Shown here in pieces: positions 4,204 through 19,665 of a stretch of 64,000 bases of DNA. The notes beneath the pieces were generated by a model. The model was not told the DNA's origin and made no database searches. It was given only the letters and a program-made list of their open reading frames with translations. This DNA is from Streptomyces sp. NBC_01304 (lineage in GTDB: Bacteria; Actinomycetota; Actinomycetes; Streptomycetales; Streptomycetaceae), in NCBI RefSeq assembly GCF_035975855.1, contig NZ_CP109055.1:9920001-9984000 (forward strand), read 5' to 3'. How positions within the stretch are numbered: position 1 is the first letter of the stretch; each line of letters opens with the position of its first letter. The position numbers and the translations under genes were made by a program.

Positions 4204-5718
4204 TCACGTGACGTCGTGGACGCAGAAGACCTCGTGGGGAGTCAGCCGGCCGCGTCCGCCGAGCCCGCCGAGTTCGACGATGGCGGCGAGTCCGCCGATG
4301 TGTCCCCCGCTGCCTTTGACCAGCTGGGCCGCGGCTTCCAGCGTGCCGCCGGTAGCGAGTACGTCATCGATGATCAGGACACGTGCACCGGGAGCCAGCG
4401 CGTCGGACTGCATCTCCAGGCGATCGTTCCCGTACTCAAGGCCGTAGCTGACGGAGACGACCTCGCCGGGGAGCTTGCCGGGCTTGCGGGCAAGGATCAG
4501 GGGGGCACCGGCCCGCTGCGCGACGGCGCTGCCGATCGGGAACCCGCGGGCTTCCAGGGCCAGTACGCAGTCGAACCGGCCCTGAAACTGCCGCCATATC
4601 GCCGTGGCCGTATCCCGGACCAGCGCCGGATCCGCGTAGAGCGGGCCGAGGTCCTGGAAGCTGACGCCGGGTGTGGGAAAGTCCGCCACGACCTGGATGC
4701 GTGCGGCGACGCGCTCCGCCAGTTCGCCGCCGGGCCTGAGTGTCCGTGATTCGGTGACGACGGCCGTCACCAGGTCCGCAGGGGTGACGTCGAACGCCGG
4801 GTTGAAGGCTCGGGTGCCCACCGGTGCCATGAGCTGTCCGGCGTGGTGCGTCACTTCCTCGTCGGCGCGCTCCTCGATGCGGATGCCGGCGCCGTCCAGC
4901 ACGGTCACGTCCACGGTGGACTCGGGCGCGACGACGACGAAGGGGATCCCGGCGCGTTGCGCGGCAATGGCGAGGGGGTAGGTGCCGATCTTGTTTGCCA
5001 CATCGCCTCGGGCGGTGATGCGGTCGGCTCCCACGATCACGCAGTCGACCATGCCCGTGGCGATGGCAGCCGGGCCGGCCGAGTCCACGCACAGGCGGTG
5101 CGGAATACCCTCTTCCGCGAGTTCCCACGCGGTCAGGCGCGCGCCCTGGAGCAGCGGGCGGGTCTCGCCGGCGATGACCTCCTGCACCTGGCCGGCCGCC
5201 GCCAGTTCGCGGATCGTGCCCAGCGCCGTACCCCAGGCGACGGTGGCCAGCCGCCCGGTGTTGCAGTGGGTCAGGATCCGCAACGGCCCCGGTCCGCACT
5301 GCTCGCGCAGGAATCGCGCGGCCCTGGCGGACGCATCGCGGTTCGCCTGTTCGTCCTCGTCCAGCATGGTGAGCGCCTCGTCGAGCACGGCGTCGGCACC
5401 TTCTGGGAGCCGGGTCAGTGCCCGTCGTACGCCCCAGGCGAGGTTGACCGCCGTGGGGCGCGCGGTGGCGATGCGCTCGGCCTGTACCTGGACGGCGGGC
5501 CGGTCGAGCAGGCCGTCCACGGTGTGGTGGCGGGCGGCCAGCGCGACGCCGAGCGCGCCGGCCACTCCGACGGCAGGTGCGCCGCGTATCGCCAAAGTCT
5601 CTATGGCATCGACGAGTTGATCGACGGTGGTCAGCCGCATGATGCGTCGTTCATGGGGGAGAGCTCGCTGGTCGAGGGTGCGAATGGTGCCGCTGTCCCA
5701 GGTGATGGAGCGTTCCAC
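4204..5718 (-). CDS. mtnA-apt: Fusion of methylthioribose-1-phosphate isomerase (MtnA) and adenine phosphoribosyltransferase (Apt)
   Basis: 504 residues with two enzymes in one chain. Residues 1 to about 330 match MtnA (IRGAPAVGVAGA, HCNTG with catalytic Cys152, VGADRITARGDVANKIGTY with Asp232), which isomerises 5-methylthioribose-1-phosphate to the ribulose form. Residues from about 335 match Apt: FPTPGVSFQDLGPL and the PRPP-binding loop IIDDVLATGGT at 449-459, which converts adenine plus PRPP to AMP. MtnP makes both substrates (methylthioribose-1-phosphate and adenine) in one reaction, so the fusion pairs the two exits of that reaction. It is the last gene of the operon, downstream of the SARP gene. 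Each domain is full length, so this is not an assembly artefact of a truncated gene. Confidence 0.93.
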   Translation of the reverse strand: MERSITWDSGTIRTLDQRALPHERRIMRLTTVDQLVDAIETLAIRGAPAVGVAGALGVALAARHHTVDGLLDRPAVQVQAERIATARPTAVNLAWGVRRALTRLPEGADAVLDEALTMLDEDEQANRDASARAARFLREQCGPGPLRILTHCNTGRLATVAWGTALGTIRELAAAGQVQEVIAGETRPLLQGARLTAWELAEEGIPHRLCVDSAGPAAIATGMVDCVIVGADRITARGDVANKIGTYPLAIAAQRAGIPFVVVAPESTVDVTVLDGAGIRIEERADEEVTHHAGQLMAPVGTRAFNPAFDVTPADLVTAVVTESRTLRPGGELAERVAARIQVVADFPTPGVSFQDLGPLYADPALVRDTATAIWRQFQGRFDCVLALEARGFPIGSAVAQRAGAPLILARKPGKLPGEVVSVSYGLEYGNDRLEMQSDALAPGARVLIIDDVLATGGTLEAAAQLVKGSGGHIGGLAAIVELGGLGGRGRLTPHEVFCVHDVT

Positions 5719-5742
5719 CAGGGTGGTCCTTTCCGTTCGGTG

Positions 5743-6564
5743 TCAGGCGCTGAACAGGTCCAGTGACAGTGCCCGGCCGCGTGAGGGCGGCGTGGTCAGT
5801 TCGGGGTCGGCGTTGAGGATGGCGCTGTGAATGCCGCGCAGCCTCGGTGAGGGGTCGATGCCCAGGTTCTGATTGAGGGACCCTCGCAGCAGGTGGTAGG
5901 CATCGAGGGCCTGGGCTGCTCGGCCGGAGCGGTACAGGGCGAGCATGTACTGCGCGTGGAAGTTCTCGTGCGCCGGATACTCGGCGGCCAACTGGCTGAG
6001 TTCGGGGAGGAGTTCATGGTGCATGCCGAGGCGCAGTTCGGCCTCGATGCGCTGGTCGAGGAGGGTGAGGCGCAGCTCTTCCAGTCCCGTGACGCGGGCC
6101 TGGAGGTAGCTGCCCAGTTCGACGTCGGTGAGGGCCGGACCGTGCCAGAGCTGGAGTGCCGCGCGCAGGGCGAACCGCAGTCTGCGCTCGTCGCCTGCGG
6201 CTTCGGCGCGGCGTGATTCCGCGACGTGCCGTTCGAGGTGGTGGAGGTCGACGCTGCCCGGAGCGGCGTGCAGTTGATAGCCGCGATGCTGGGTGGTCAG
6301 AGCCTGCTTGGCGCCCTCGTGCGAGCCGATCGACGGGGATGCGGCCAGTGCGTGCCGGATGTGCATGATGCGGGTGTGGAGGCTCTGGACGGCGCTCCGT
6401 GGGCCGTGGTTGCCCCACAGTTCCTCCAGGCACATGGCCATGGAGACCGGAGTGTTGTTGTACAGGACGAACAGCGCTAACAGCTGGCGCGTCTTGGGGG
6501 CCGAGGGGAGCCGGCAGGCTCCGGCGTCATTCATGACAAGTGGGCCTAGTGCCCTGAATTCCAT
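5743..6564 (-). CDS. SARP-family transcriptional activator (cluster-specific)
   Basis: 273 residues, the usual size of a small SARP. The N-terminal winged-helix domain (MEFRALGPLVM to about residue 95, with TRQLLALFVL and RGYQL) is followed by a bacterial transcriptional activation domain (HARHxxL-type helices, MLALYRSGRAAQALDAYHLLR). The ATG at 6564 is preferred over the TTG at 6576 because GGGAGA sits 7 bases upstream of it. SARPs bind heptad direct repeats overlapping the -35; one such array lies upstream of speH at 19799-19827. The gene lies directly upstream of mtnA-apt and probably activates the whole operon. Confidence 0.88.
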   Translation of the reverse strand: MEFRALGPLVMNDAGACRLPSAPKTRQLLALFVLYNNTPVSMAMCLEELWGNHGPRSAVQSLHTRIMHIRHALAASPSIGSHEGAKQALTTQHRGYQLHAAPGSVDLHHLERHVAESRRAEAAGDERRLRFALRAALQLWHGPALTDVELGSYLQARVTGLEELRLTLLDQRIEAELRLGMHHELLPELSQLAAEYPAHENFHAQYMLALYRSGRAAQALDAYHLLRGSLNQNLGIDPSPRLRGIHSAILNADPELTTPPSRGRALSLDLFSA

Positions 6565-7015: not shown

Positions 7016-7074
7016 GAGAATTCCTTCCCATCTTTGATACTGCGTGGTGTCTATGGGCGTGCGCTGTTCACGTA

Positions 7075-8319
7075 TCAGCTGTGTGTCCCGCTGCGGTACT
7101 CGGCTTTTGCGTGCTGAGCGTCGACCGTCTCGTGTTCCGCGCCCCGGACGGCACCTACTGGGCGGCTCGGCCCGGCGAGCAGTGTCAGTACCGCGATGGC
7201 GGCGGTGAGCAGGAAGGCCGCGCTCAGGCTGAAGCGGTCGGCGACGACCCCCAGGGCCGTGGGGCCGATGATGGTGCCGATGCCGAGGAAGAACACCGTG
7301 GAGCTGAAGCCGGTCGACGGGCGTTCGGGGAAGACCTGGTAGCTCCAGACGGCGAGCAGACCCGAACCGGCCATGAAGGCCGGGCCGTAGAGCACGGCCG
7401 AGGCCGCTACGGCGGGGATCGCCCCGGGCGCCACGCCCAGCAGGGCGATGGCGACGGCCATGGCGAGGAAGAGCAGCATCTGGGTGCGGCGCTGTCCCAG
7501 GCGCTGGATGAGGGAGCCGGTGAACACCCCCGCCGTGCCCGCCAGGCCCATCAGGGTCCAAAAGAGCGGACCGGTGGGGTCGTTGTCCTTGAGGTCCTGG
7601 GACACGGCGTCCACGGCGAAGGTCCAGTAGACCGCGCCGATCAGTCCGTAGGACAGTGCTGTGGCGTACAGCGGTACGGCCGGCCGCCGGGCGAACCAGC
7701 GCAGACCGAGGCGCTGTTGGGGTGTGCGCGGAGCGTGGTGGTGCGATCCGCCGGGCAGGATGCGGGCGTTGTAGAGGGTGACGGCGAGTGCGGCCACGGC
7801 GAAGGCCGTCCACGCGTACTGCCATGTGGGGCCCTGGGCGACGATGGCCAGAGGTCCGGCGATGATGACCGCGAATGCCGTGCCGCTGGGGATCAGTGCC
7901 ATGACCCGCTCGCGCTGGTGGACGGGGACCATGCGGTCCACGGCGTCGGAGTAAGGGGCCCAGGCGAACCCTGGGCTCAGTCCGGCCATGACCAGCCCGG
8001 CGATCAGCATCCCGGTCCCGTGTGCGTACGCCACAAGGAGCATGCCCGCCGCCGCCGACATGCCGCCGCAGATGACCAGGGGGCGGGGCCCCCATCGGGT
8101 GGAGAGGACGCCGACGAGCAGCAGGGCGATCAGGTAGCTGACGTAGGTCGCGCTGCCGATGACTCCGACCAGGGAGACCGACAGGTCGAACTGGCGGCGT
8201 ATCTCCGGCAGGAAGAGGCCGTATCCATAGCGGGCGAACCCGAAGGTGACGCCCTGGGCCGCGACGCCTGCCATGCCCACCTTCCAGGCGATGGACAGTC
8301 GAGGATTGCGACGGCTCAT
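7075..8319 (-). CDS. MFS transporter (YbfB/YjiJ-type)
   Basis: 414 residues with about 12 hydrophobic segments. The start GVAAQGVTFGFARYGYGLFL, RWGPRPLVICGG after the second helix pair, and FGLSPGFAWAP-like loops are typical of the YbfB/YjiJ branch of the major facilitator superfamily. It stands in the middle of the biosynthetic operon, directly downstream of the TetR gene, so export of the cluster product or an intermediate is the natural inference. Transport direction and substrate are not visible. The final 25 residues are hydrophilic and cytoplasmic. Confidence 0.85.
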   Translation of the reverse strand: MSRRNPRLSIAWKVGMAGVAAQGVTFGFARYGYGLFLPEIRRQFDLSVSLVGVIGSATYVSYLIALLLVGVLSTRWGPRPLVICGGMSAAAGMLLVAYAHGTGMLIAGLVMAGLSPGFAWAPYSDAVDRMVPVHQRERVMALIPSGTAFAVIIAGPLAIVAQGPTWQYAWTAFAVAALAVTLYNARILPGGSHHHAPRTPQQRLGLRWFARRPAVPLYATALSYGLIGAVYWTFAVDAVSQDLKDNDPTGPLFWTLMGLAGTAGVFTGSLIQRLGQRRTQMLLFLAMAVAIALLGVAPGAIPAVAASAVLYGPAFMAGSGLLAVWSYQVFPERPSTGFSSTVFFLGIGTIIGPTALGVVADRFSLSAAFLLTAAIAVLTLLAGPSRPVGAVRGAEHETVDAQHAKAEYRSGTHS

Positions 8320-8374: not shown

Positions 8375-8998
8375 CTACGGGGTGTCCTGAACGCCCTCCG
8401 CGCGGCCGGTCCGGGGCCAGGAGTCCAGGAGCCGGTCCACCGCTGTGCGCGCCTTCGCGATGGAGTCCTCGACGGTGCCCAGCGCCTGGGTGGTGCTGGC
8501 GCCCTCGTAGAGGATGAGGAGCGTGTCGACCAGTTCCTCGGCGCTCAGGAAGCCCGCCTGGTCGACGAGTTGGGCGAGCTCGGTGCGCAGGGCCGCCTTG
8601 TGCCCCGTCACGATGGCGCGTGCCGGGTGCTCGCGATGGGCCAGCTGAGCGGTGGCATTGGCGAACGAGCAGCCCCGGAAGCCGGGTTCGGTGTGGCAGG
8701 TGGCCAGCGCCTCGAAGACCGAGCGGATTCGGGCCAGGGGGTCCGGCCCGGCCGCGGTCAGGGTCTCGGCCAGCAGACGTCGCCAGCGGATGTCGCGCTG
8801 CTCGAGGTAGGCGACGATCAGGGCGTCCTTGCCGCGGAAGTGCTTGTAGAACGTCATCCGTGCGACGTCGGCCGCTTCGATGATCGCGTCGACTCCCGTG
8901 GCGTCCAGCCCCTGCGCGTAGAAGAGGTCGTCGGCAGCGGTGAGCAGGCGTTCGCGGGCGGAGGGCCGGGGGGCCTGCTCGGAGGGGTGGAGGATCAT
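8375..8998 (-). CDS. TetR/AcrR-family repressor
   Basis: 207 residues from ATG 8998. The HTH domain spans about residues 15-60 (ARERLLTAADDLFYAQGLDA, then ADVARMTFYKHF and GKDALIVAYL), and the C-terminal domain is of the TetR_C type. Downstream is the MFS gene; upstream are two copies of a palindrome-containing motif at 9011-9024 and 9036-9049, one of which overlaps the adoK stop. The arrangement suggests that TetR represses its own promoter and the exporter from inside the operon, so export can be induced by a ligand separately from biosynthesis. Confidence 0.87.
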   Translation of the reverse strand: MILHPSEQAPRPSARERLLTAADDLFYAQGLDATGVDAIIEAADVARMTFYKHFRGKDALIVAYLEQRDIRWRRLLAETLTAAGPDPLARIRSVFEALATCHTEPGFRGCSFANATAQLAHREHPARAIVTGHKAALRTELAQLVDQAGFLSAEELVDTLLILYEGASTTQALGTVEDSIAKARTAVDRLLDSWPRTGRAEGVQDTP

Positions 8999-9010
8999 GA
9001 CGGTGACTAT

Positions 9011-9049
9011 ACGGAACGTTCTATGCACATGATAGACGGAACGTTCTAT
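9011..9049. promoter_or_regulatory. Paired TetR operator candidate
   Basis: ACGGAACGTTCTAT occurs exactly twice, at 9011-9024 and 9036-9049, 25 bp apart. Each copy centres on the palindrome GAACGTTC. The pair fills the 47-bp gap between the adoK stop (9046-9048) and the TetR ATG. Two dyads about two to three helical turns apart are common for TetR-family autoregulation. Confidence 0.65.
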
Positions 9050-10059
9050 CCGTGTGTGGATCCGGCGACGGACGGCGGCCGTGCTCCCTCCGTCCACCCG
9101 AAGTCCCTCAGCCGGGGAGCGACTGCGCCGTACGTGGTGCGCAGCAGCGAGTCCACGCGTTCCGGCACGACCTCATACGTCTGTGTGCCCGCCGCCTCCA
9201 GTGCGAGGGCGGCCATGGTGGATCCGGCCCGGGCGGAGCGGCCGGCGTCCAGGCCGCAGCTCAGTCCCGCCAGGTAACCGGCCCGAAAGGCGTCCCCGGC
9301 ACCGGTGGGATCCACGACCGTGACGACGGGCACGGCGGCGACCTCGGTGGCGGGCCTGTCCGCCGCTTCGATGCGGCACCCCCGCTCGCCCAGCGTGGTG
9401 ACCCAGGTGCCGACGCGGCCGAGCACCTCGCCGCGGGTCCAGCCGGTCTTCCGGAGAAGGAGCGCATCCTCGTACTCGTTCGTGAACAAGTGGTCGGCGC
9501 CGCTGACGAGTTCGCGGCACATCGCGCCGTCCAGCCGGGCCAGCTGTTGCGAGGGGTCGGCGGCGAAGCGGATGCCCAGAGACCGGCATGCCCGGGTGTG
9601 CAGCAGCATCGCCTCCGGATCGTCCGCCCCGATCAGGACGAGACCCGGGGCGTGTTCGCGCAGGACGGTGGTGAGGTCTATCCCGGAGGCCTCGGCCATG
9701 GCTCCCGGATAGAAGGACGCGAGCTGATTGCCCTCCTGATCGGTCGTGCAGGTGAAACGGGCCGTGTGCTGTGTGGTCGAAACCCGCACCGCCGCGAGGT
9801 CGACGCCCCGGGCGGTGAGCCGGCGACCGTAATCGGCGAAATCGGGGCCGACGGCGCCCACGAGTAGGGCTCGGTGGCCCAGGGCGCCCAGTCCGAACGC
9901 GATGTTCGCCGCGACGCCGCCCTGGCGCACCTCCAGACCGTCCACCAGGAACGACAGCGACAGATGGGCAAGGTGCTCGGGCAGCAGCTGTTCCGCGAAC
10001 CGCCCGGGGAACGTCAGCAGATGGTCGGTGGCGATGGATCCGGTGATCGCGACCTTCAC
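9046..10059 (-). CDS. adoK: Adenosine kinase (PfkB/ribokinase family)
   Basis: 337 residues from GTG 10059. The whole chain matches actinobacterial adenosine kinase: TGSIATDHLLTFPGRF at the start, the SLSFLVD strand, GGVAANIAFGLGALG, FAADPSQQLARL, LFTNEYE, and the anion-hole/catalytic DPTGAGDAFRAG. It phosphorylates adenosine to AMP. In this operon it would recover adenosine from S-adenosylhomocysteine, the other waste of SAM-dependent methylation, complementing Apt, which recovers adenine from MTA. The start codon is one base after the metK stop, so the two are translationally coupled. Its own stop codon lies within a TetR operator copy. Confidence 0.9.
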   Translation of the reverse strand: MKVAITGSIATDHLLTFPGRFAEQLLPEHLAHLSLSFLVDGLEVRQGGVAANIAFGLGALGHRALLVGAVGPDFADYGRRLTARGVDLAAVRVSTTQHTARFTCTTDQEGNQLASFYPGAMAEASGIDLTTVLREHAPGLVLIGADDPEAMLLHTRACRSLGIRFAADPSQQLARLDGAMCRELVSGADHLFTNEYEDALLLRKTGWTRGEVLGRVGTWVTTLGERGCRIEAADRPATEVAAVPVVTVVDPTGAGDAFRAGYLAGLSCGLDAGRSARAGSTMAALALEAAGTQTYEVVPERVDSLLRTTYGAVAPRLRDFGWTEGARPPSVAGSTHG

Positions 10060-10060: not shown

Positions 10061-11287
10061 TCAGCGCTCCGCGGCCTTGCGCAGCGCGTCCACGCGGTCG
10101 GTGCGCTCCCAGGTGAAGTCCGGGATCGCACGGCCGAAGTGGCCGTACGCGGCGGTCTGGGCGTAGATCGGGCGGAGCAGGTCGAGGTCGCGGATGATCG
10201 CTGCCGGGCGGAGGTCGAAGACCTCGGCGATGGCGTGCTCGATCTTGTCCACGTCGACCGTGGCGGTGCCGAAGGTCTCCACGAACAGACCGACGGGCTC
10301 GGCCTTCCCGATCGCGTACGCGACCTGGACCTCGCAACGCGAGGCGAGACCCGCGGCGACGACGTTCTTCGCGACCCAGCGCATAGCGTAGGCGGCCGAG
10401 CGGTCGACCTTGGACGGGTCCTTGCCCGAGAAGGCGCCGCCACCGTGGCGGGCCATGCCGCCGTAGGTGTCGATGATGATCTTGCGGCCGGTCAGGCCGG
10501 CGTCGCCCATCGGGCCGCCGATCTCGAAGCGGCCGGTCGGGTTGACCAGCAGGCGGTAGCCCTCGGTCTCCAACTTGATGCCGTCGTCGGCGAGTTGGGC
10601 CAGAACGGGCTCGACGACGAACTCGCGGATGTCGGGCGCGAGCAGCGAGTCCAGGTCGATGTCCGACGCGTGCTGCGAGGAGACGACGACCGTGTCGAGG
10701 CGGACGGCCTTGTCGCCGTCGTACTCGATGGTGACCTGGGTCTTGCCGTCGGGGCGCAGGTAGGGGATGGTCCCGTTCTTGCGCACGTCGGACAGGCGCT
10801 TGGAAAGCTTGTGCGCCAGGTGGATCGGGAGCGGCATCAGCTCGGGCGTCTCGTCCGAGGCGTACCCGAACATCAGGCCCTGGTCGCCCGCGCCCTGCTT
10901 GTCGAGCTCGTCTCCTCCTTCACCTGCGGCGGCACTCTCGACCCGCTTCTCGTACGCGGTGTCGACGCCCTGCGCGATGTCCGGGGACTGCGCGCCGGTG
11001 GACACCGAGACGCCGCAGGAGGCGCCGTCGAAGCCCTTCTTCGAGGAGTCGTAGCCGATCTCGAGGATCTTGTCGCGCACCAGCTGCGCGATCGGCGCGT
11101 ACGCCTTGGTCGTGACCTCGCCGGCCACGTGCACCAGGCCGGTGGTGATCAGCGTTTCCACGGCGACCCGGGAAGTCGGGTCCTCCCGCAGAAGCGCATC
11201 GAGGATGGTGTCGCTGATCTGGTCAGCGATCTTGTCGGGGTGACCCTCGGTCACGGACTCCGAGGTGAAAAGGTAGGAAGAAGTCAC
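10061..11287 (-). CDS. metK: S-adenosylmethionine synthetase
   Basis: 408 residues, full length for MetK. Visible signatures are [20 protein letters not shown] at the N-terminus, the [12 protein letters not shown] loop, and the [19 protein letters not shown] phosphate-binding segment. It makes SAM from methionine and ATP. GTG 11287 is preceded by AAGGG. Streptomyces normally carry one housekeeping metK elsewhere; a copy embedded here, between MtnP and AdoK, closes the cycle from salvaged methionine back to SAM for the pathway. Residues 113-128 ([12 protein letters not shown]) are a small acidic insertion seen in actinobacterial MetK. Confidence 0.96.
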
Positions 11288-12113: not shown

Positions 12114-13327
12114 GTCAACTCCTGTGATGGATGGGGCAGGGCGGACCTGGTTTCCGGAGGCGACGCGATCGCCCGGGCCGCCCTGGTGAGCAGATCGAGG
12201 TCCTTGCAGAAGGCGAAGCGTGCGAGCTCCCGGTACGGCTCGGGATCCCCGGCGAACGCACTGGTCGGGATCGCCACGACACCGCAGCGTGCGGGCAGGT
12301 CCCGACAGAACCGGGCGCCGTCGCCCCGCCCCGCCGTCGCCACGTCGGCCTGGAGGAAGTAGCCGCCCTCCGCACGGATCACATCGAGACCGGCCAGGCG
12401 CAGGCCCTCAGCCAGCACATCGCGCTGCTGTTGAAGGCGCTCCCGCAGGCCGGCGACCCAGCCCTCCTCGTGATCGAGTGCCCAGGCGACGGCGCCCTGC
12501 AGGGGAGCCGCACCCGCGAAGGTCAGGTACTGCTTGACCGACCGCAACGCGCGGATCAGGTGGGCAGGACCGCACGCCCAGCCCACCTTCCAGCCAGTGA
12601 GGCTGAAGGTCTTGCCCGCGGAGGACACGGAGATGGTTCTCTCGCGCATACCGGGCAGGCCGGCGAGCGGGACGTGCAGGGCACCGTCGAAGGTCAGGTA
12701 CTCATACACCTCGTCGACCACCGCGATGAGATCGTGTCGCCGGCAGACCTCGGCGATGATGTCCGACTCGTCTCGGGTGAAGACCTTGCCCGTGGGGTTG
12801 TGCGGGGTGTTGAGCAGCAGGACGCGGGTGCGGGACGACAGAGCCCGGTGCAGGTCCTGCGGATCGAAGACGAAACGCCCGGCGCTGGGGCGCAGCGGTA
12901 CCCGACGGCACACCGCGCCGGCCAGTTCCGCGGCCGCCTGGTAGGAGTCGTAGCAGGGGTCGAAGACCACGATCTCGTCGCCCGGGTCGCACAAGGCCAG
13001 CACGGCGGCGGTGACGGCCTCCGTGGCACCGGTCGTCACGACGATCTCGTCGACGGGGTCGTACGAGCTGTCATGGCGTCGAACACGCTGGCGGGCGATG
13101 GCCTGCCGCAGGACCGGCGCGCCCGCGAGGGGCGGGTACTGGTTCACGCCGGAAGCCAGTGCCTGCCGGGCCCGGCTGATCACTGACGCCGGGCCATCGG
13201 AATCGGGGAAGCCCTGGCCGAGGTTGATCGCGCCCGTCCGCTGTGCCAGTTCGGTCAGTTCGGTGAACACGGTCGTGCCCCATGCGGCAGTGCGCCGGGC
13301 GGCGCGCACCGTGACATCCGCGGTCAT
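12110..13327 (-). CDS. mtnE: PLP aminotransferase, probable KMTB transaminase (MtnE role)
   Basis: 405 residues of aminotransferase class I/II in the KAT/YbdL group (FTELTELAQ followed by GAINLGQGFPD). PLP-binding residues are visible: NTPHNPTG at about 173-180, Asp205 in VVDEVYEY, and the Schiff-base Lys239 in SSAGKTFSLTGWKVGW. YbdL-type enzymes transaminate 4-methylthio-2-oxobutyrate to methionine, which is the last step of the salvage cycle. Position between mtnC and mtnP supports this role. A biosynthetic role on another keto acid is possible but less likely. ATG 13327 overlaps the mtnC stop (ATGA). Confidence 0.85.
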   Translation of the reverse strand: MTADVTVRAARRTAAWGTTVFTELTELAQRTGAINLGQGFPDSDGPASVISRARQALASGVNQYPPLAGAPVLRQAIARQRVRRHDSSYDPVDEIVVTTGATEAVTAAVLALCDPGDEIVVFDPCYDSYQAAAELAGAVCRRVPLRPSAGRFVFDPQDLHRALSSRTRVLLLNTPHNPTGKVFTRDESDIIAEVCRRHDLIAVVDEVYEYLTFDGALHVPLAGLPGMRERTISVSSAGKTFSLTGWKVGWACGPAHLIRALRSVKQYLTFAGAAPLQGAVAWALDHEEGWVAGLRERLQQQRDVLAEGLRLAGLDVIRAEGGYFLQADVATAGRGDGARFCRDLPARCGVVAIPTSAFAGDPEPYRELARFAFCKDLDLLTRAARAIASPPETRSALPHPSQELT

Positions 13328-14043
13328 CGGCCGATCTCCTCGGCCAGGTCGAGCAGGTTGCGATAGCGAGGATGGTCCGCAGCGGGCGAACGGTCCGGGC
13401 CGTTCGGCGAGCCACACTCCTCCGGCCGTGCCACCCATGCCGTGCGCCACCCCGCGGCCCGCGCGGAGTCGAGCTCCGGCACGCTGTCCGAGGCGAACAG
13501 CACTCGGGCCGACGGGGTTTCGATGCTGCGGGCAATGCTCCGGTACGAGGCCGTGGACAGTTTGCCGCCGGCGGAACTCGTGTCGAAGTAGCCGGTGAGC
13601 CACGCGCGCAGGTCGCCGAACTGCGTATGTGCGAACAAGTCCTGCTGCGCCTGGACGGAACCGGACGAGTAGATGTAGATCCGCGCCTCACGCCCGCGCC
13701 AGGTGCGCAGTGCGGGAAGCGTGTCGCCGTACACATGCCCCGACAGGTCGCCGTTGACGTACCCCTCGTGCCAGATCAGTCCCTGCAGGGCCTTGAGGGA
13801 CGCGTGCTTGCGGTCGGAGTCCGCCCACTCGACCAGAGTGGCCACCGTGGCCTCGTCGTCGCCGCCCGCGGGGCGGCCGCAGCTGCGGTCGACCTCGTCG
13901 AGGAGCGCACGCGTCTGCCTTTCGTCGCCGTGCCGCGCCACCCACTGCGCCAGCCGGGCCCGCGCATAGGGGAAGAGCACGGCGTGGACGTGTTCGACGG
14001 CGCTGGTGGTGCCTTCGACATCGAGCACCACTGCGTCGGTCAT
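13324..14043 (-). CDS. mtnC: Acireductone synthase / enolase-phosphatase E1
   Basis: 239 residues of the HAD superfamily, MtnC type. Motif I is DVEGTT (Asp8, Glu10), followed by LFPYAR; GLIWHEGYVNGDLSGHVYGD, IYSSGSVQAQQ and GYFDTSSAGGKL are family hallmarks. It enolises and dephosphorylates 2,3-diketo-5-methylthiopentyl-1-phosphate to acireductone. ATG 14043 overlaps the mtnD stop, and the order mtnB-mtnD-mtnC matches the order of reactions apart from the last two. Confidence 0.94.
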   Translation of the reverse strand: MTDAVVLDVEGTTSAVEHVHAVLFPYARARLAQWVARHGDERQTRALLDEVDRSCGRPAGGDDEATVATLVEWADSDRKHASLKALQGLIWHEGYVNGDLSGHVYGDTLPALRTWRGREARIYIYSSGSVQAQQDLFAHTQFGDLRAWLTGYFDTSSAGGKLSTASYRSIARSIETPSARVLFASDSVPELDSARAAGWRTAWVARPEECGSPNGPDRSPAADHPRYRNLLDLAEEIGR

Positions 14044-14630
14044 GTCGCAGCCCCCACCGCCGCGTTGAGGTCATCCAGCGTCGGGAAGCGGCTCGCGATG
14101 CTGTCGGGCAGAAAGTTCCCGACCCAGCCGTCCTCCTCCTGGAAGAAGCGGATGGCAGTGAAATCAGGGCTGTTGCCCATGTCGAACCAGTGGACGGTGC
14201 GCGCAGGCACCGAGATCAGGTCGCCGGCAGTGCACACCATGGCGTAGACGAAATCCTCGACGTGCAAGTAGAAGCAGCCGGAACCCTCGACGAAGAACCG
14301 CACTTCGTCTTCCGTGTGGAAGTGCTCTTCGAGGAACTTGGTCCGTGCCGCACGCGCCCGCGCGGGCCACTCGGGGTCACCGGAGTCGGGCCGCAGCCGG
14401 GCCACGTCGACCAGGCGGTAGCCCCCCTTGTCGGAAATGCGGTCGACGTGGGGCCGGTAGGCGTCCAGGATCGCCTCGGCGTCCGCCCCCTCGGCCAGAT
14501 CGCGGGGGGCCTCCCACTGCTCGAACTGGACGCCGATGCCGTCCAGTTCCGAGCGGATGCGCTCGGCGGACCGCGTGCGCAGCTGCACCGACCGCGGCTG
14601 GTCCACCGGGATCACGTGAAGGTGGGTCAC
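14040..14630 (-). CDS. mtnD: Acireductone dioxygenase
   Basis: 196 residues of the cupin-fold ARD family. Metal ligands are visible as His103, His105, Glu109 (EEHFHTEDEVRFFVEGSG) and His147 (RTVHWFDMG). With Fe(II) this enzyme yields 4-methylthio-2-oxobutyrate plus formate; with Ni(II) it yields the off-pathway methylthiopropionate and CO. Salvage needs the Fe form. ATG 14630 overlaps the mtnB stop by 4 nt. Confidence 0.95.
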   Translation of the reverse strand: MTHLHVIPVDQPRSVQLRTRSAERIRSELDGIGVQFEQWEAPRDLAEGADAEAILDAYRPHVDRISDKGGYRLVDVARLRPDSGDPEWPARARAARTKFLEEHFHTEDEVRFFVEGSGCFYLHVEDFVYAMVCTAGDLISVPARTVHWFDMGNSPDFTAIRFFQEEDGWVGNFLPDSIASRFPTLDDLNAAVGAAT

Positions 14631-15292
14631 CGTATGTCCTCACTCTGTTCGGTGGCGTTGCCGGCCAGCAGAAGGAGCCGGCACAGCATCTCGACGCATT
14701 CCATGCGGTTGGTGGCCTCGGTGAGATCGCGCCCCCAAGTCGTCACGCCATGACGGGAGATGAGCAGTGCGGGCACCGCCGGGCCCGCTCCCGTGCCCAG
14801 ATGGGCCACGACATCCCGGGCGATGCGCGGGACGTCGGCCCAGTTGGCGAAGACCGGCACCGAGACGTGCGAGGCGTCGGGTACGCCGAGCCCTTTGGCC
14901 AACTCCCAGTCGATGAAGTCGACCCGGCCCGCGGCGTGGCCGTGCGAGGCCACCGTGGTCGCGTACGGGGCGTGGGTGTGCACGACCGCACCGGCGCCCG
15001 GAACCGTCCGGTAGACGGCGAGGTGGATGGAGGTCTCGGCCGACGGGCGCGCCTGCTCATCGGCGAGCGGCGCGCCGTCGGCGAGCGAGACGGCGACGGT
15101 GTCGGTGCGCGACATCGTGCCCTTGGCGCGTCCACTGGCCGAGATGAGGACGTGGTTCCCGGCCCGCACCGACACGTTGCCGGCGGTACCCGGCATCCAG
15201 CCGCGCCGGAACAAGTCACGGCAGACGGCGGCGATGTGGCCCCGCTCGGGTTCAACGCCGGCCCGCAGCGGCGCCTCGGCGGTCTGGTTCAT
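14627..15292 (-). CDS. mtnB: Methylthioribulose-1-phosphate dehydratase
   Basis: 221 residues of the class II aldolase/adducin family. Zinc ligands are His105 and His107 in VVHTHAPYA and His181 in ISRHGVTTWG; GTAGNVSVR near residue 36 is the phosphate-side loop. MtnB dehydrates 5-methylthioribulose-1-phosphate. ATG 15292 has AGGGGAG upstream and is preferred to the longer 15337 start. It is the first of the Mtn genes in the transcript, just after the Rieske gene. Confidence 0.93.
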   Translation of the reverse strand: MNQTAEAPLRAGVEPERGHIAAVCRDLFRRGWMPGTAGNVSVRAGNHVLISASGRAKGTMSRTDTVAVSLADGAPLADEQARPSAETSIHLAVYRTVPGAGAVVHTHAPYATTVASHGHAAGRVDFIDWELAKGLGVPDASHVSVPVFANWADVPRIARDVVAHLGTGAGPAVPALLISRHGVTTWGRDLTEATNRMECVEMLCRLLLLAGNATEQSEDIR

Positions 15293-15306: not shown

Positions 15307-16434
15307 TCACGGTGCTCCGAATGCTTTGGTGAACCAATCGTGGAAGGCTTCACCGATGTGATGCTCATGCGGCACGAGGACTCCGCCGGGCTCGTACACA
15401 CGGGACTTCATGTTGACCTGGCAGCGCTCACAGGCATCGAAGTCCTGCTGGTTGATGCGGTGGAACAGCTCGACCGAATGGTCCAGCTCCGGCCCGGAGT
15501 CCGGCACGTCCTGGGCGTACAGCCAGTCGCACTCGACGATCGTCCGGTCGACCGCGACGGGGAACATCCGGTGGAAGATCACGTGGTCCGGCACGAAGTT
15601 GATGAAGACCTGCGGGTTGATGGTGACGCCCCAGTACTTGCGGTCCTGCTCCTCCGTGACGCCGGGAAGCTTGCCGAAGCCGCCGGTGCCGTCCACGGTG
15701 AACGCCTCGGCGTCCTCACCGAAGCTGATGCCGCGGCCCACGTAGTGCTGGGCGGCGTATCCCTTGGCGTACTCGGTCACCACGCCGACGAACTCCGGGT
15801 GGATGGAGGCGCAGTGGTAGCACTCCATGAAGTTCTCGACGACGATCTTCCAGTTGGCCTTCACCTCGTAGCTGATGCGTCGGCCGACCTTGAGGTCGGG
15901 AATGGCCCAGCTGCCGACGGCCTCCTCATCGCCGAACCGCTCCGTCACGGTGCGGCTGACCGTGTCCTCGAACGACGGCGGCTCCTCGGCGAGACAGACC
16001 CATGCGTAGCCGAGGTACTCGCGCACATGGACTTGCTTGAGCCCCCATTCGAGCGGGTCGACGTCGGGCATCTTCGCGATGTGCGGGGCGGTGACGAGCC
16101 GGCCGTCGAGGCTGTACGTCCAGGAGTGATAGCTGCAGCGGAAGTTGCGCTTGACCTGACCGAACTCCTCCGGGCAGAGACGGGTGCCGCGGTGCCGGCA
16201 GACGTTCAGGAACGCGCGCAAGGTCCCGTCGTGGGACCGGACCACGATCACGTTCTCCTTGCCGACCTGGGCCGTGCGGTACTTGCCCGGCGCATCCAGG
16301 TCGGAGAGATGGGTGAATCCGTACCAGAACTGGTGGAAGAGCCGGTCCTGCTCCAGGTCGAAGATCTGCGGGTCGCTGTAGTAGCGCCCGGGGAGCGTCG
16401 CCATCAGGCTGGGCGGCAGGAGGGGAGCCGTCAT
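15307..16434 (-). CDS. Rieske non-haem iron oxygenase, quaternary-amine-oxygenase-like
   Basis: 375 residues. The Rieske [2Fe-2S] ligands are Cys79-x-His81 and Cys100-x2-His103 (NVCRHRGTRLC, FRCSYHSW). The mononuclear iron motif is ENFMECYHCASIHPEF with His207 and His212. The residue that usually bridges the two metal centres as Asp is Glu204 here, as in carnitine monooxygenase and choline/glycine-betaine-type Rieske enzymes. That suggests oxygenation next to an onium centre. Within a SAM-consuming cluster, a sulfonium or an N-methylated intermediate is a plausible substrate. No ferredoxin or reductase gene is in the operon, so electrons must come from elsewhere. Confidence 0.87.
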   Translation of the reverse strand: MTAPLLPPSLMATLPGRYYSDPQIFDLEQDRLFHQFWYGFTHLSDLDAPGKYRTAQVGKENVIVVRSHDGTLRAFLNVCRHRGTRLCPEEFGQVKRNFRCSYHSWTYSLDGRLVTAPHIAKMPDVDPLEWGLKQVHVREYLGYAWVCLAEEPPSFEDTVSRTVTERFGDEEAVGSWAIPDLKVGRRISYEVKANWKIVVENFMECYHCASIHPEFVGVVTEYAKGYAAQHYVGRGISFGEDAEAFTVDGTGGFGKLPGVTEEQDRKYWGVTINPQVFINFVPDHVIFHRMFPVAVDRTIVECDWLYAQDVPDSGPELDHSVELFHRINQQDFDACERCQVNMKSRVYEPGGVLVPHEHHIGEAFHDWFTKAFGAP

Positions 16435-16479
16435 GTCGTCCTCTCTTGGGTGTCGGTGCGTGGTGGCCCTGGGCCGGGG

Positions 16480-17199
16480 TCAGGTGGGGGACTCGGCCGA
16501 CCACACGATGAGCGCGTCGTACAACTCGTCGCCGGCAATGGGGCACAGCCGGCTGGAGGTCAGCCGCAGTCCGGCCGCGCCGACGGCGGCAGCGACCAGT
16601 TCCTCGGTCAGATAGGTGTTGTCATGGCCGGCTGAGGCGATGTACGGCTCGCTGCGGATCCAGTCCGCGCCGATGGCCTTTCCGCCGGCGCGCAGATGAC
16701 CGCTCAGCCGCTCGAAGCACGCGAGGTAGCCGTCGGTGGTGGGGGACAGGCCGAAGAGGCCGAACTCCGTGATGAGGTCGAAGCGTTGCTCGGCGAAGCT
16801 GTCGGGCCAGGCGCGCATGGCGTCGAAGACGTGGTAGCCCGCCATGCGGGAGCGCATGCGGGCGAGGTGCCCGACGTCGCGACCGTGCCGCTCGAGTACC
16901 TGCTCGAAGGCGCGGGGAAGTTCCTCGCCCTCCACCACGTCCCGCAGCACGGCGAGGGCTTCGGGGGATGCGTCCGAGCTGTGGATCGACCGGATGTCCG
17001 ACAGGGCGATGGACCAGAACAGCGTGCAGGGCCCTGCCCCCAGATCGAGCCAGTCGCCCTTGGCGTCGGACGCGGCCAGGGTGTCGAGGATGTCTTCGGT
17101 CCCCATGCCCGGACAGAAGTCGCCGTGGAAGAAGTCGGCGAAGTATCCGCGGTAGTGGGCGAGTTGGGTGGGGTCCAGGTCCAGCAGGCGGTCCGTCAC
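16480..17199 (-). CDS. NNMT/PNMT/TEMT-like class I SAM-dependent transferase
   Basis: 239 residues from GTG 17199, which overlaps the preceding stop (GTGA). The N-terminus (LAHYRGYFADFFHGDF) resembles the HYxxYFxxF region of nicotinamide and phenylethanolamine N-methyltransferases. Motif I is LDLGAGPCTLFW at 51-62, the acidic end of strand 2 is Asp76, LRAGGKAIGADW is the post-II loop, and the family ending is YDALIVW. It should bind SAM or decarboxylated SAM and act on an amine or aromatic nitrogen. Given the MTA-salvage genes around it, it may transfer the aminopropyl chain instead of a methyl group; this is inference. Confidence 0.75.
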   Translation of the reverse strand: MTDRLLDLDPTQLAHYRGYFADFFHGDFCPGMGTEDILDTLAASDAKGDWLDLGAGPCTLFWSIALSDIRSIHSSDASPEALAVLRDVVEGEELPRAFEQVLERHGRDVGHLARMRSRMAGYHVFDAMRAWPDSFAEQRFDLITEFGLFGLSPTTDGYLACFERLSGHLRAGGKAIGADWIRSEPYIASAGHDNTYLTEELVAAAVGAAGLRLTSSRLCPIAGDELYDALIVWSAESPT

Positions 17200-18059
17200 G
17201 AGTCCTCCCGGCGGTCGGTGGCGGAGGAAGCGGGGCGCAACAGCGTGATCATTCGCGCCGATCCCGGCGTCCACGGGGCGCCGGTGTAGTCCCGGGCCGT
17301 CCGATCGATGTACAGGTCCGCGCGGTCGGCCATCGCTTCCACCTCGGGGCGCCGGTAGCGGCGCAACCGGATCGAGGACTGCCACTGCTCCTGTACGCGG
17401 TCGCCCTCGCCCCGCCGGTAGAGATAGTCGATCCGCATGTGGGTCCCCTCGTCGTGCTGCACGCGCGAGCGCTCAAGCCAGCCGGAGGGCGCGATGTCGC
17501 GGCGCCACTCGGTCACCGGCAGTCCGTCCGGGAGCGCCGGGTCGAAGTAGTCCGGAAGGGCCGAAGTCCCCTGTCCGCCCGGCGCGTTGTCGGGGCCGAA
17601 GCTGTGCAGGTCGAGCAGGAGCGAGCCGCCCGGGGCCAGGTGGTGGGCCAGGCGCCGCAGGGCACGCTCGGCGTCCTGGTGGCTCTCCACCAGTTGGAAC
17701 GCCTCTTGGGGCACGATGATCAGATCGAAGCGGCGGCCGAGGTCCAGCTCCCGCAGGTCCGCCTGGACGGCGGTGACCAGGGCGTTCGCCCCGGCTGCCG
17801 CGATGCGGTCCCGGACCCGTCGGACCATGGCGGGTTCGAGATCGACGCAGACCGTCTCGCGGCCGGCGGCGATGAGCCAGTCCGTATTGCGCCCGGCCCC
17901 GCAGGGAATCTCCAGGATCGATGTGGTGGTGTCGGTGACCAGGCTTTGCAGGAAGGCCTGGTCCACCGTGGTCCGGTACTCGACTTCGTAGTACCGGGCC
18001 CGCTGTTCGTACCCGGCCTCGGGGACGGGCCCGCTGGTGGCAGTGGAGGGAGTGGCCAT
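17196..18059 (-). CDS. Class I SAM-dependent methyltransferase
   Basis: 287 residues. Motif I is ILEIPCGAGRNTDWL at about 48-62, CVDLEPAMV follows with Asp73, then FDLIIVPQEAFQLV and LAPGGSLLLDLHSF. The fold is the small-molecule methyltransferase type; a Pro in EIPCGAG is less common. The C-terminal third (QEQWQSSIRLRRYRRPEVEAM) resembles substrate-binding strands of N- or O-methyltransferases. ATG 18059 starts one base after the preceding stop. Together with the NNMT-like gene it supplies two SAM-binding enzymes for the pathway; which one acts first cannot be seen. Confidence 0.8.
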   Translation of the reverse strand: MATPSTATSGPVPEAGYEQRARYYEVEYRTTVDQAFLQSLVTDTTTSILEIPCGAGRNTDWLIAAGRETVCVDLEPAMVRRVRDRIAAAGANALVTAVQADLRELDLGRRFDLIIVPQEAFQLVESHQDAERALRRLAHHLAPGGSLLLDLHSFGPDNAPGGQGTSALPDYFDPALPDGLPVTEWRRDIAPSGWLERSRVQHDEGTHMRIDYLYRRGEGDRVQEQWQSSIRLRRYRRPEVEAMADRADLYIDRTARDYTGAPWTPGSARMITLLRPASSATDRREDS

Positions 18060-18060
18060 G

Positions 18061-19182
18061 TCAGTGGGCTCCCGCCGGTGCGGCCGCGTCTGCGTGGACC
18101 ATGTGCCGCTCGATCTCGTGATGCGTGATCCGCCCGCCGTCAGTGATCATGCCGCTCGCCGCGGTGGGTGCGGGCACGCCCTCGTACAGGGAGTTGCCGA
18201 GCTCGATGAGGTAAGGGGTGATGAGCGGACTGACGGCCCGGGCCGCGGTGTGGGGAACGGAGCCTGGCATCGCGTCGATCTTGCAGTGCAGGACACCGAA
18301 CCGTTCGTAGACCGGGTCGGTGTGAGTGGTCTGGCTGTGGAACGTGGGGAGGTATCCACTGCCGTAGCCGACGGTGACGTCCACGATCATCGAGCCCGGC
18401 CTCATCCGGCGGACCAGGTTCTCGTCGATCATCGGCGGGGTGTCGTAGGTCGAGATCAGAATCGCTCCGACCACCAAGTCGGCCTGCTCCACCTCCCGTT
18501 CGAGGGCGTCCGGAGTGTTGAGGCGGCAGGTGACACCCGGCACGGACGCGGCGAAGCGGCGCAGACGTTCGCGGTTGGTGCCCAGGACGACGACCTCGGC
18601 GCCCAGTGCGTGTGCCGTACGGGCGGCCGCCGCACCGGCATTGCCGTAACCGATGACGAGGACACGTGGCGGCTTCACGTAGGAGACGTCCGCCAGCAGC
18701 ACGCCCGAGCCGCCCATGTGGCTCTGCAGGTGGTAGGCCGCGAAGAGAACGGCGAGCTTTCCCGAGATCTCGCTGTCGGGTACGGCCAGCGGGAATATGC
18801 CTTCGGGGGTCTTGAAGAATTCGTATGCGTAGGCCTGGGTCTCCGTTTCCAGGAGCCTCGAGGTGAGTTCCGGATTTCCTTCGGCGTGGAAGAAGGCGCC
18901 GAGGCGCAGTCCCTTGCGCAGGTACTTGTACTCGTCCGGTCCGGGCGCCTTGTACTTGAGCACGAAGTCGCTCTCCCGCCACGCCTGCTCGGTCGTGACG
19001 ATGTTCGCGCCGGCCTCTTTGTAGGTCAGGTCGGACGCGCCGGTCTCCGCGCCTGCTCCCTCCTCCACGAGCACGTCGAATCCGGCGTTCCTGAACTCCG
19101 TCACCTGGTCGGGCAGGATGATGACGCGCTTCTCGCCGGCTCGCGTCTCCTTGAGTACGGACACCCTCTTGCTCGTGGCCAT
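18061..19182 (-). CDS. Alanine dehydrogenase/PNT-family enzyme with altered active site
   Basis: 373 residues, the length of alanine dehydrogenase. Lys/Arg and His of the Ald pyruvate site are retained: Arg19 in KETRAGEKR, Lys78 in KYKAPGP, His99 in FFHAEGN. The NAD loop is VIGYGNAG (176-183). The catalytic Asp that Ald carries in VDIAID aligns with Gly272 here (VDVTVGYGSG), so normal alanine oxidation is doubtful. It may act on another amino or keto acid, or form a carbon-nitrogen bond reductively as some relatives do. Second gene of the operon, between speH and the methyltransferases. Confidence 0.75.
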   Translation of the reverse strand: MATSKRVSVLKETRAGEKRVIILPDQVTEFRNAGFDVLVEEGAGAETGASDLTYKEAGANIVTTEQAWRESDFVLKYKAPGPDEYKYLRKGLRLGAFFHAEGNPELTSRLLETETQAYAYEFFKTPEGIFPLAVPDSEISGKLAVLFAAYHLQSHMGGSGVLLADVSYVKPPRVLVIGYGNAGAAAARTAHALGAEVVVLGTNRERLRRFAASVPGVTCRLNTPDALEREVEQADLVVGAILISTYDTPPMIDENLVRRMRPGSMIVDVTVGYGSGYLPTFHSQTTHTDPVYERFGVLHCKIDAMPGSVPHTAARAVSPLITPYLIELGNSLYEGVPAPTAASGMITDGGRITHHEIERHMVHADAAAPAGAH

Positions 19183-19257
19183 GCTTCCCCTTTCACTGCA
19201 TGAGTCGGGCGTGCTCAGTTGGCTCGTGCTTGCCTGATCAAGTCAGGGAGACGTGGG

Positions 19258-19665
19258 TCAGGCGGGGTTGATTCCGCGCTTCAGTTCGGCCACCTGCACC
19301 TGCTCCGGGTTGAATGCCTTGCGCAGCACGGGAATGGCCTTGCGCGGGTCGGAGTCGCCGCAGGTGAAGATGTCGATCGCCGCATAGCCGTTCTCCGGCC
19401 AACAGTGGATGGACAGGTGCGACTCGCTGAGCACGGCAACCCCGGTGAGGCCTTGCGGTGCGAAGCGGTGCAGCTTCAGTTCGAGCAGGGTGGCGCCGCA
19501 GGCGTCGACCGCGTCACGCAGCGCCGCGGAGACTATGTCCTCGTCGTCGAGGTGCTCCGCCCCCCAGAGGTCGAGAGTGATGTGGATGCCTGCGTAGGAA
19601 AGCCCGTAGTCGTCCATGCGGTACTCACCGGGCAGCTTCTCCACGGACTCGGGTGCGACCGTCAT
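19258..19665 (-). CDS. speH: S-adenosylmethionine decarboxylase proenzyme
   Basis: 135 residues of the bacterial class 1B type. The autocatalytic site is Glu81-Ser82 in LSESHLSIHCWPE; Ser82 becomes the pyruvoyl group, and His87 and Cys102 (FTCGD) are the processing and proton-donor residues at the family spacing of +5 and +20. The product, decarboxylated SAM, is the aminopropyl donor in polyamine synthesis and leaves MTA when used. It is the first gene of the operon, with an AGGAGG ribosome-binding site. No spermidine synthase was recognised in the window. Confidence 0.95.
   Translation of the reverse strand: MTVAPESVEKLPGEYRMDDYGLSYAGIHITLDLWGAEHLDDEDIVSAALRDAVDACGATLLELKLHRFAPQGLTGVAVLSESHLSIHCWPENGYAAIDIFTCGDSDPRKAIPVLRKAFNPEQVQVAELKRGINPA

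Follow-up and report, generated by a model that had tools for sequence, protein, structure and literature searches.

A conserved Streptomyces gene cluster that joins a predicted SAM decarboxylase to a complete methylthioadenosine recycling pathway

In the 11.0-Mb genome of Streptomyces sp. NBC_01304, a 64,000-nucleotide stretch that was analyzed as a whole and is called the window here (C1:9920001-9984000) carries, entirely on the minus strand between positions 4204 and 19665, a series of genes that joins a predicted S-adenosylmethionine (SAM) decarboxylase to a complete pathway for the recycling of methylthioadenosine (MTA). From 19665 down to 4204 the order is speH, a gene for a protein related to alanine dehydrogenase (AlaDH-like), genes for two methyltransferase-fold proteins (the first of the Methyltransf_25 type, here MT25, and the second of the NNMT/PNMT/TEMT type, here NNMT-like), a Rieske oxygenase gene, mtnB, mtnD, mtnC, a class I/II aminotransferase gene, mtnP, metK, a PfkB-family kinase gene, tetR, an MFS transporter gene, a SARP gene, and an mtnA-apt fusion (Table 1). 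The 12 genes from speH to the kinase gene are spaced by -4 to +75 bases, values that depend on the start codons chosen, with 4-base overlaps at 5 of the 11 junctions, and we therefore read this run as one operon; the remaining genes, tetR through mtnA-apt, come after it without a change of strand. No ligase, nonribosomal peptide synthetase, or polyketide synthase gene lies within the set.

Gene content, conservation and borders

Family assignments are based on the bit scores of curated models against their cutoffs (Pfam, TIGR/NCBIfam). The expected motif residues were found in MtnA, MtnB, MtnC, MtnD, and the Rieske protein, and the probable starts of the NNMT-like, aminotransferase, and kinase genes are internal to their longest open reading frames (ORFs). 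A preliminary description of this DNA had reported one minus-strand series of MTA-cycle genes with metK, apt, speH, a Rieske oxygenase, transferases, an AlaDH-like enzyme, an exporter, and a SARP. The family assignments agree with that list and the genes it named are there, but it had missed the TetR gene.

Table 1. Positions, strand, and supporting models or residues for the features of the cluster (window numbering)
Feature	Position	Strand	Basis
speH, class 1b S-adenosylmethionine decarboxylase proenzyme	19258..19665	-	PF02675, TIGR03330
AlaDH/PNT-family dehydrogenase, remodelled active site	18061..19182	-	PF05222 and PF01262; TIGR00518 below cutoff
Class I SAM-dependent methyltransferase-fold protein, Methyltransf_25 type (MT25)	17196..18059	-	PF13649, 59.5 bits
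NNMT/PNMT/TEMT-family methyltransferase-fold protein, likely GTG start	16480..17199	-	PF01234; start from orthologue comparison
Rieske oxygenase alpha subunit, group V type (E-C-x-x-C)	15307..16434	-	PF00355 and PF00848; ECYHC; Rieske ligands
mtnB, methylthioribulose-1-phosphate dehydratase	14627..15292	-	TIGR03328; start chosen, ORF from 15337
mtnD, acireductone dioxygenase	14040..14630	-	PF03079; metal ligands
mtnC, enolase-phosphatase (acireductone synthase)	13324..14043	-	TIGR01691
mtnE-type class I/II aminotransferase (2-keto-4-methylthiobutyrate to methionine)	12110..13327	-	PF00155; PRK07777 and methionine-aminotransferase models below cutoffs
mtnP, MTA phosphorylase	11322..12113	-	TIGR01694 and NF005876 over cutoff
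metK, SAM synthetase	10061..11287	-	TIGR01034 over cutoff
PfkB-family kinase, possibly adenosine kinase; accessory	9046..10059	-	PF00294
TetR-family regulator	8375..9097	-	PF00440; orthologues in both other clusters
MFS transporter, presumed exporter	7075..8319	-	PF07690/PF06779; orthologues in both other clusters
SARP-family activator, one TTA codon	5743..6576	-	PF03704
mtnA-apt fusion, methylthioribose-1-phosphate isomerase and adenine phosphoribosyltransferase	4204..5718	-	TIGR00512, NF002636
15-base element upstream of speH, candidate regulatory site	19808..19822	-	upstream-region alignment of three species

Orthologous clusters are present in Streptomyces sp. B-S-A12 (genome G246) and S. 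sioyaensis, the scan for speH having taken one genome per species and kept 80 of 81 loci, two of them in Streptomyces. From speH through metK both clusters are complete and collinear with the window; tetR with the MFS gene comes next and then the SARP gene with mtnA-apt, the last two being on the opposite strand in S. sioyaensis. The central claim of the preliminary description, that a SAM decarboxylase and complete MTA recycling stand in one cluster with a transporter and a SARP, holds in three species, and the comparison across Streptomyces that it had proposed (speH, mtn genes, and the apt fusion) recovers the full set in both relatives. The PfkB kinase gene is the sole member without a match in either of these clusters; it had been called adoK, and its product is a PfkB-family kinase that is possibly an adenosine kinase. 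Purifying selection acts on each of the 15 shared genes, with ratios of nonsynonymous to synonymous substitution (dN/dS) of 0.055 to 0.294 against B-S-A12 and 0.106 to 0.439 against S. sioyaensis, and these ratios together with the synteny in two other species indicate that the grouping is not due to chance.

The borders of the cluster look sharp, and none of the 43 window ORFs outside the set has a match in the corresponding place of the two 40-kb regions compared. S. sioyaensis has, 0.8 kb ahead of its speH, a stretch 74% identical to the window ORF at 770-1327, for which B-S-A12 has no match; the window carries this ORF past mtnA-apt, at the opposite end of the cluster, and it is a weak candidate for an associated gene. 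ORFs at 20475-23291 (response regulator and ABC transporter) are 33 to 46% identical to B-S-A12 genes 7.5 to 10 kb beyond mtnA-apt and are again found at the opposite end, beyond speH, in the window, while two further SARP-type ORFs of the window match the cluster SARP at 29 to 34%. Judged by eye, the B-S-A12 cluster is flanked by DNA-processing genes and that of S. sioyaensis by a transposase-like ORF; in the latter an isocitrate-lyase-like gene (also by eye) follows metK. The link of S. sioyaensis to altemicidin was the reason for also considering SAM chemistry of the altemicidin type.

Three of the genes appear near-private to the cluster. Matches to SpeH (E ≤ 1e-15) occur in 2 of 246 Streptomyces genomes, the second being 37% identical and set in a different neighborhood, and matches to the NNMT-like protein at the same threshold occur in a single one. 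The AlaDH-like protein has matches in 2 of 246 genomes at E ≤ 1e-60 and in 3 of 378 at E ≤ 1e-85 (the window, B-S-A12, and a divergent relative in another Streptomyces genome, G121); across 376 Actinomycetota, for each of which the top five candidates were scored, no genome but that of the window exceeded 288 bits, against 753 for the protein itself. Rieske matches (E ≤ 1e-40), in contrast, are common (125 of 246), and at the 29 Rieske loci listed from other genomes (L003-L031, about 60% identical) no other cluster gene lies within 1.5 kb. On its own the Rieske gene was therefore dropped as a marker of the cluster.

Recycling genes, regulators and two separable modules

Every step from MTA to methionine is covered within the cluster, with MtnP, MtnA, MtnB, MtnC, and MtnD above model cutoffs and the aminotransferase placed by similarity and position only. 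The MtnA part of the fusion scores 376 bits with TIGR00512 (cutoff, 279) and the Apt part 183 with NF002636 (125); the fusions of the other two clusters are 76% and 73% identical to it. MtnB scores 164 bits with TIGR03328 (137), MtnC 203 with TIGR01691 (128), MtnP 377 with NF005876 (306), and MetK 550 with TIGR01034 (309), while MtnD, which no NCBIfam model matches, scores 100 with PF03079 (27). The best model for the aminotransferase, PRK07777, gives 540 bits, 13 below its cutoff of 553. Among solved structures it comes closest to Rv0858c and YbdL, and a 58% identical relative stands between mtnC and mtnP in another Streptomyces genome, G158.

Copies were sought genome-wide for metK, mtnP, mtnA, apt, and mtnD. 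The genome holds three other metK genes (97, 86, and 86% identical), a second mtnP (61%, with a further 30% relative), a second mtnA (51%), and a second apt (46%), whereas mtnD has a single match (E ≤ 1e-10), the one in the cluster. The cluster copies of the duplicated genes thus look dedicated and the only complete cycle uses the cluster, which fits a dedicated supply of MTA recycling. Separately, we note that the cluster metK is 97% identical to C1:8897685-8898881 yet only 87 to 90% identical to its counterparts in the other two full clusters, a pattern that would fit conversion or replacement from the chromosomal copy. In genome G086 (L159-L160), metK and a PfkB kinase gene (57%) adjoin a gene judged MetF-like by eye and lie about 5 kb from mtnB and mtnD, an arrangement that suggests that the kinase of the window may serve adenosine from methylation.

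The recycling genes also travel without the rest. mtnD is present in 48 of 246 Streptomyces genomes, and among the 29 mtnD loci listed from other genomes mtnB lies within about 1.5 kb in all 29, with no speH, AlaDH-like, MT25, NNMT-like, or Rieske gene within that distance. G158 (L220 and L161) has an mtnA-apt fusion with no stop between the parts and a run of mtnB, mtnD, mtnC, aminotransferase gene, and mtnP beside AurF, FemAB-like, ATP-grasp ligase, and LysE genes, and the 46 kb searched there gave no match to SpeH, the AlaDH-like, MT25, or NNMT-like proteins, or the Rieske protein. B-S-A12 itself carries a second mtnA-apt fusion on contig 19 (L158), 56% identical, with mtnB, mtnD, and mtnC and near radical-SAM, haem-oxygenase-like, alanine-racemase, and 2-hydroxyacid dehydrogenase genes, and in G137 mtnA-B-D-C-P adjoin an ORF that by eye resembles a nonribosomal peptide synthetase. 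Judged from these gene neighborhoods, the mtn cassette occurs in differing clusters.

Conversely, G121 holds a 40% identical AlaDH-like gene followed by an MT25 relative (local score, 123; shuffle mean, 36; z, 17) and then by the first part of an NNMT-like relative (score, 100; shuffle mean, 31; z, 14), with a speH relative about 3 kb away across an M20-peptidase gene. No mtn gene or metK was found in its 54 kb by tblastn at E ≤ 0.01, a search that also missed the MT25 relative, which rests on the shuffle test. Since G121 keeps relatives of all four genes, they seem linked, and one of them should use decarboxylated SAM; speH, the AlaDH-like gene, and the two methyltransferase-fold genes thus seem to form a biosynthetic core, for which G121 offers weak but independent support.

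The two modules can thus occur apart, yet in each of the three full clusters a common gene run, regulators, and borders bind them together. The preliminary description had held that mtn genes occurring without the Rieske, transferase, and AlaDH-like genes would mark the two sets as independent. Taken literally, such loci exist (the 29 listed mtnD loci over about 1.5 kb and G158 over 46 kb), and G121 has the core without mtn genes, but the modules are joined in three full clusters. Mere adjacency of two unrelated gene sets, which the separate occurrence of mtn cassettes and of the speH core might suggest, is highly improbable given that three species share the order and that the window has one gene run with 4-base overlaps and one regulator and transporter set.

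A TTA codon in a Streptomyces gene points to bldA dependence. The SARP gene has one in all three species within the same QLLALF stretch (the second Leu in the window and B-S-A12, the first in S. sioyaensis), which suggests that the SARP is probably bldA dependent; one TTA codon each is also found in mtnC of B-S-A12 and in the aminotransferase gene of S. sioyaensis. About 150 bases upstream of speH, alignment of the three species reveals a common 15-base element. The motif was derived from this alignment, and it matches the window exactly only once. Inexact copies are at chance level (8 including the exact one, against 10.3 expected), and we therefore claim no regulon. Elsewhere the window encodes another SARP-type regulator, a large one that contains TPR repeats (33702-36611), further on an MMPL protein (38123-40432), and, near the window end, a large right-handed beta-helix protein (60574-63966).

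The predicted SAM decarboxylase and the other putative biosynthetic enzymes

SpeH scores 133.4 bits with TIGR03330 (cutoff, 75.65) and is the sole PF02675 match in the genome. It keeps a Phe and a Glu that we take to be SAM contacts and, compared with the Thermotoga maritima enzyme, the equivalents of the pyruvoyl Ser, His68, and Cys83 (SESHLSIHCWPE and FTCG) as well as both prolines of the central region. The catalytic residues and a Pro that separates true SAM decarboxylases from arginine decarboxylases serve as criteria (PMC10407285); with both prolines kept, the result is the same whichever of them is the distinguishing one. In a quick tree of 81 rows the three Streptomyces proteins form one group (SH-aLRT, 93); by path length the nearest other rows are alphaproteobacterial, although the exact place is poorly supported and several long branches were flagged.

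At the 18 best-ranked loci outside Streptomyces (L066-L083), speE lies within 300 bases of speH in every case, and it is near speH in none of the three Streptomyces clusters. Across all 80 speH loci (tblastn), speE is within 3 kb in 41, further off in 7, and not in the covered DNA in 32; the last group includes two Streptomyces loci, the alphaproteobacterial L085, L095 (only 2 bases downstream of speH covered), and at least 22 cyanobacterial loci. A Pfam check found SpeE in 3 of 4 downstream ORFs, and at the fourth locus tblastn placed speE 167 bases away. The spermidine synthase family, PF01564, had no tblastn match in the window or in the B-S-A12 and S. sioyaensis regions, while two proteins elsewhere in the genome match it (102.6 and 24.7 bits), the first being 33% identical to the SpeE query and 4.6 Mb away. 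Because the catalytic residues and prolines are kept and the nearest kin adjoin speE, the protein looks like a true SAM decarboxylase that has lost its usual neighbor.

SpeH could instead have been neofunctionalized to decarboxylate arginine, ornithine, or another amino acid, with MTA coming from elsewhere. Arginine and ornithine decarboxylases derived from SpeD are known, one of them from Actinomycetota, and the search for such homologues has turned to cases with no spermidine synthase or with a duplicated speD (PMC10407285), the former being a situation that the lack of speE in the cluster resembles. We nonetheless regard this as improbable, given that SpeH keeps the Pro at either candidate position, the Ser, His, and Cys, and the presumed contact residues, that its nearest kin are coupled to SpeE and mostly alphaproteobacterial, and that a full MTA cycle beside a decarboxylase of another substrate would require another source of MTA. 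Also unlikely is a polyamine module in which a SpeE-like protein encoded elsewhere makes spermidine, the methyltransferases, Rieske oxygenase, and AlaDH-like enzyme modify it, and the mtn genes are ordinary salvage; it would fit the two PF01564 matches of the genome, one of them clear, and the fact that MTA salvage usually accompanies polyamine synthesis (PMC6302742). A match to SpeH (E ≤ 1e-15) is, however, missing in 244 of 246 Streptomyces genomes, so that in general no enzyme of this kind supplies the SpeE-like proteins of the genus, and the SARP with its TTA codon, the transporter, and the patchy distribution point to specialized metabolism.

The only other SpeH match in the 246 Streptomyces genomes, at 37% identity, is in G172 (L170, 6707-7135), where its neighbors are MFS-like (by eye), Trp-dioxygenase-like, and amidohydrolase genes. 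None of the core genes was found in the 15 kb around it, and the locus is perhaps another cluster built on SAM decarboxylation.

The AlaDH-like protein scores 267.3 bits with TIGR00518, below the cutoff of 391.85, and so does not reach the score of an L-alanine dehydrogenase equivalog. We take N5-(carboxyethyl)ornithine synthase, an enzyme of the opine type that joins a keto acid and an amine reductively, to be a relative within the alanine dehydrogenase family. With the housekeeping alanine dehydrogenase of the genome (C1:8461398) as the reference, in which Arg15, Lys75, His96, Asp198, Asp270, and Met301 stand at those numbers, the protein keeps the active-site Arg, Lys, and His, but Asp270 is replaced by Gly in all four aligned members (window, B-S-A12, S. 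sioyaensis, and G121) and Asp198 by Gly or Ala (Gly in the window). In the Mycobacterium tuberculosis enzyme His96 and Asp270 are essential and Asp198 contacts NAD (PMC4691113). With the catalytic and the NAD-binding Asp both lost, this is therefore not an ordinary alanine dehydrogenase, and it may favor NADP and act on another amine.

We treat Rieske and TRANSFERASES together, that is, the Rieske, NNMT-like, and MT25 proteins. The NNMT-like protein reaches 35.1 bits with PF01234 (cutoff, 25; 29.5 to 36.6 bits over the three species), and of the 50 Foldseek matches listed for its structure model, which has a predicted local distance difference test score (pLDDT) of 63, 48 were named NNMT, with NNMT ranked first. 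The product of speH needs a user and PF01564 is absent from the cluster, so that one of the methyltransferase-fold proteins is the likeliest aminopropyltransferase; by exclusion this would be the NNMT-like or the MT25 protein, with the former slightly favored.

MTA might alternatively come from SAM itself, through 3-amino-3-carboxypropyl transfer or cyclization to azetidine-2-carboxylate or 1-aminocyclopropane-1-carboxylate (ACC), leaving SpeH on a side path. There are precedents with a methyltransferase fold in AzeJ and VioH (PMC11794875) and in aminocarboxypropyl transferases (PMC10491745). The motifs of the azetidine-2-carboxylate synthases AzeJ and VioH, PFNxxGN and RxxYYxxC (PMC11794875), are, however, absent from both the NNMT-like and MT25 proteins, the aminotransferase resembles YbdL and Rv0858c with none of its 31 solved-structure matches (E ≤ 1e-30) named as an ACC synthase, and speH occurs in each of the three clusters and has a relative in G121, all of which makes this origin of MTA quite unlikely.

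The Rieske protein has its ligands in place and an ECYHC motif at residue 204, which provides a bridging Glu and a Cys-x-x-Cys pair. This matches E205, C206, and C209 of CntA, and the Cys pair characterizes certain group V enzymes whose substrates are quaternary ammonium compounds (PMC10952381). The protein thus has the marks of a group V enzyme (CntA, GbcA, and Stc2, which act on quaternary ammonium). Its assignment as a glycine betaine monooxygenase was rejected, with NF058607 giving 209.9 bits against a cutoff of 670.

Proposed pathway and comparison with known systems

We consider it probable, though by no means certain, that the cluster makes a small N-methylated aminopropyl compound from decarboxylated SAM, which would be oxidized and exported while a dedicated pathway recycles the MTA. 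The protein families, gene order, conservation, lack of a spermidine synthase, and active-site changes are read from sequence, and from them we infer the substrates, the transferase, the order of steps, export, and the product. MetK would make SAM and SpeH would decarboxylate it, after which the NNMT-like protein (slightly favored) or MT25 may move the 3-aminopropyl group to an amine or N-heterocycle, freeing MTA, and the remaining methyltransferase-fold protein may N-methylate. The AlaDH-like enzyme, probably with NADPH, could reduce a C=N bond formed from an alpha-keto acid and an amine, much as alanine dehydrogenase does with ammonia, and the group V Rieske enzyme could oxidize an N-methylated, perhaps quaternary, nitrogen compound before the MFS protein exports the product. 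MtnP, MtnA, MtnB, MtnC, MtnD, and the aminotransferase would return MTA to methionine and Apt would return adenine to AMP, with the SARP and TetR proteins controlling the cluster. More tentative, and in our estimate rather doubtful as a whole, is the specific version in which an aminopropyltransferase of the NNMT/PNMT family (or MT25), an NADPH-dependent imine reductase derived from alanine dehydrogenase, and the Rieske enzyme yield a small exported N-methylated aminopropyl zwitterion, with the full cost in sulfur and adenine returned by a methionine-salvage module that in Streptomyces also moves between unrelated clusters.

Several observations weigh against this pathway. The cluster contains no member of the known aminopropyltransferase family (PF01564), and both methyltransferases could just methylate while one of the two PF01564 proteins encoded elsewhere in the genome uses the decarboxylated SAM. 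The dN/dS values of both methyltransferase genes (up to 0.44) exceed those of speH, the AlaDH-like gene, and the Rieske gene, and the structure models are unusable for MT25 (pLDDT, 45) and mediocre for the NNMT-like protein, with no readable substrate pocket in either. The role given to the AlaDH-like enzyme rests on residue losses and a presumed family relation, no gene of the cluster obviously forms an acceptor, and no Rieske reductase was seen in the cluster. In G121 the NNMT-like gene is truncated and SpeH has lost the processing His; the sequence where the NNMT-like frame stops (L175, about 1950-2200) is rich in homopolymers and looks to be of low quality, and so this locus may be decayed or misassembled. 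On balance the cluster is real, rare, and clearly bordered, and the functional reading is strong but partial. The combination is novel, each part coming from a known family; the preliminary description knew of no described cluster with this full set, and we found none in the open-license PubMed Central literature, with subscription journals mostly outside that scope.

Clusters in which SAM serves as a building block lose the methylthio group and adenine with each turn, and here the cluster itself carries the refund; removal of MTA can also speed such enzymes, MccD being an example (PMC10491745). If the proposed core is correct, aminopropyl transfer would have been solved a second time, by an enzyme of the methyltransferase family acting on decarboxylated SAM, and searches would gain a handle, since an mtn cassette within a cluster may point to SAM-consuming chemistry that is otherwise hidden. 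The gene set is compact enough to be expressed whole.

One related system is polyamine synthesis with methionine salvage (SpeD/SpeE and Mtn), in which a SAM decarboxylase makes the aminopropyl donor and the Mtn chemistry is the same (PMC6302742), but in place of a spermidine synthase the present cluster has two methyltransferase-fold proteins, an altered AlaDH, a Rieske enzyme, a SARP, and a transporter. Microcin C (MccD/MccE with a nucleosidase, Mtn, as helper) also places a SAM-derived aminopropyl group on a natural product in a reaction helped by MTA removal (PMC10491745); it differs in using a decarboxylase domain dependent on pyridoxal phosphate (PLP) to modify a peptide-nucleotide of Escherichia coli, where here there is a pyruvoyl SpeH and a full recycling pathway. 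The aminopropyl linker of muraymycin and caprazamycin (Mur24 type) is likewise derived from methionine with release of MTA, as proposed here, but by PLP-dependent aminocarboxypropyl transfer from SAM, and the scheme described for it includes no pyruvoyl SpeH (PMC10491745). The Streptomyces fluorometabolite pathway employs salvage-type phosphorolysis and isomerase steps in product formation (PMC6302742, PMC7408626), and there these enzymes build the product, whereas here they belong to a complete cycle that regenerates methionine. The G158 cassette with its AurF, ATP-grasp, and LysE neighbors has the same recycling genes, suborder, and open mtnA-apt fusion but no match to the biosynthetic core in the DNA searched.

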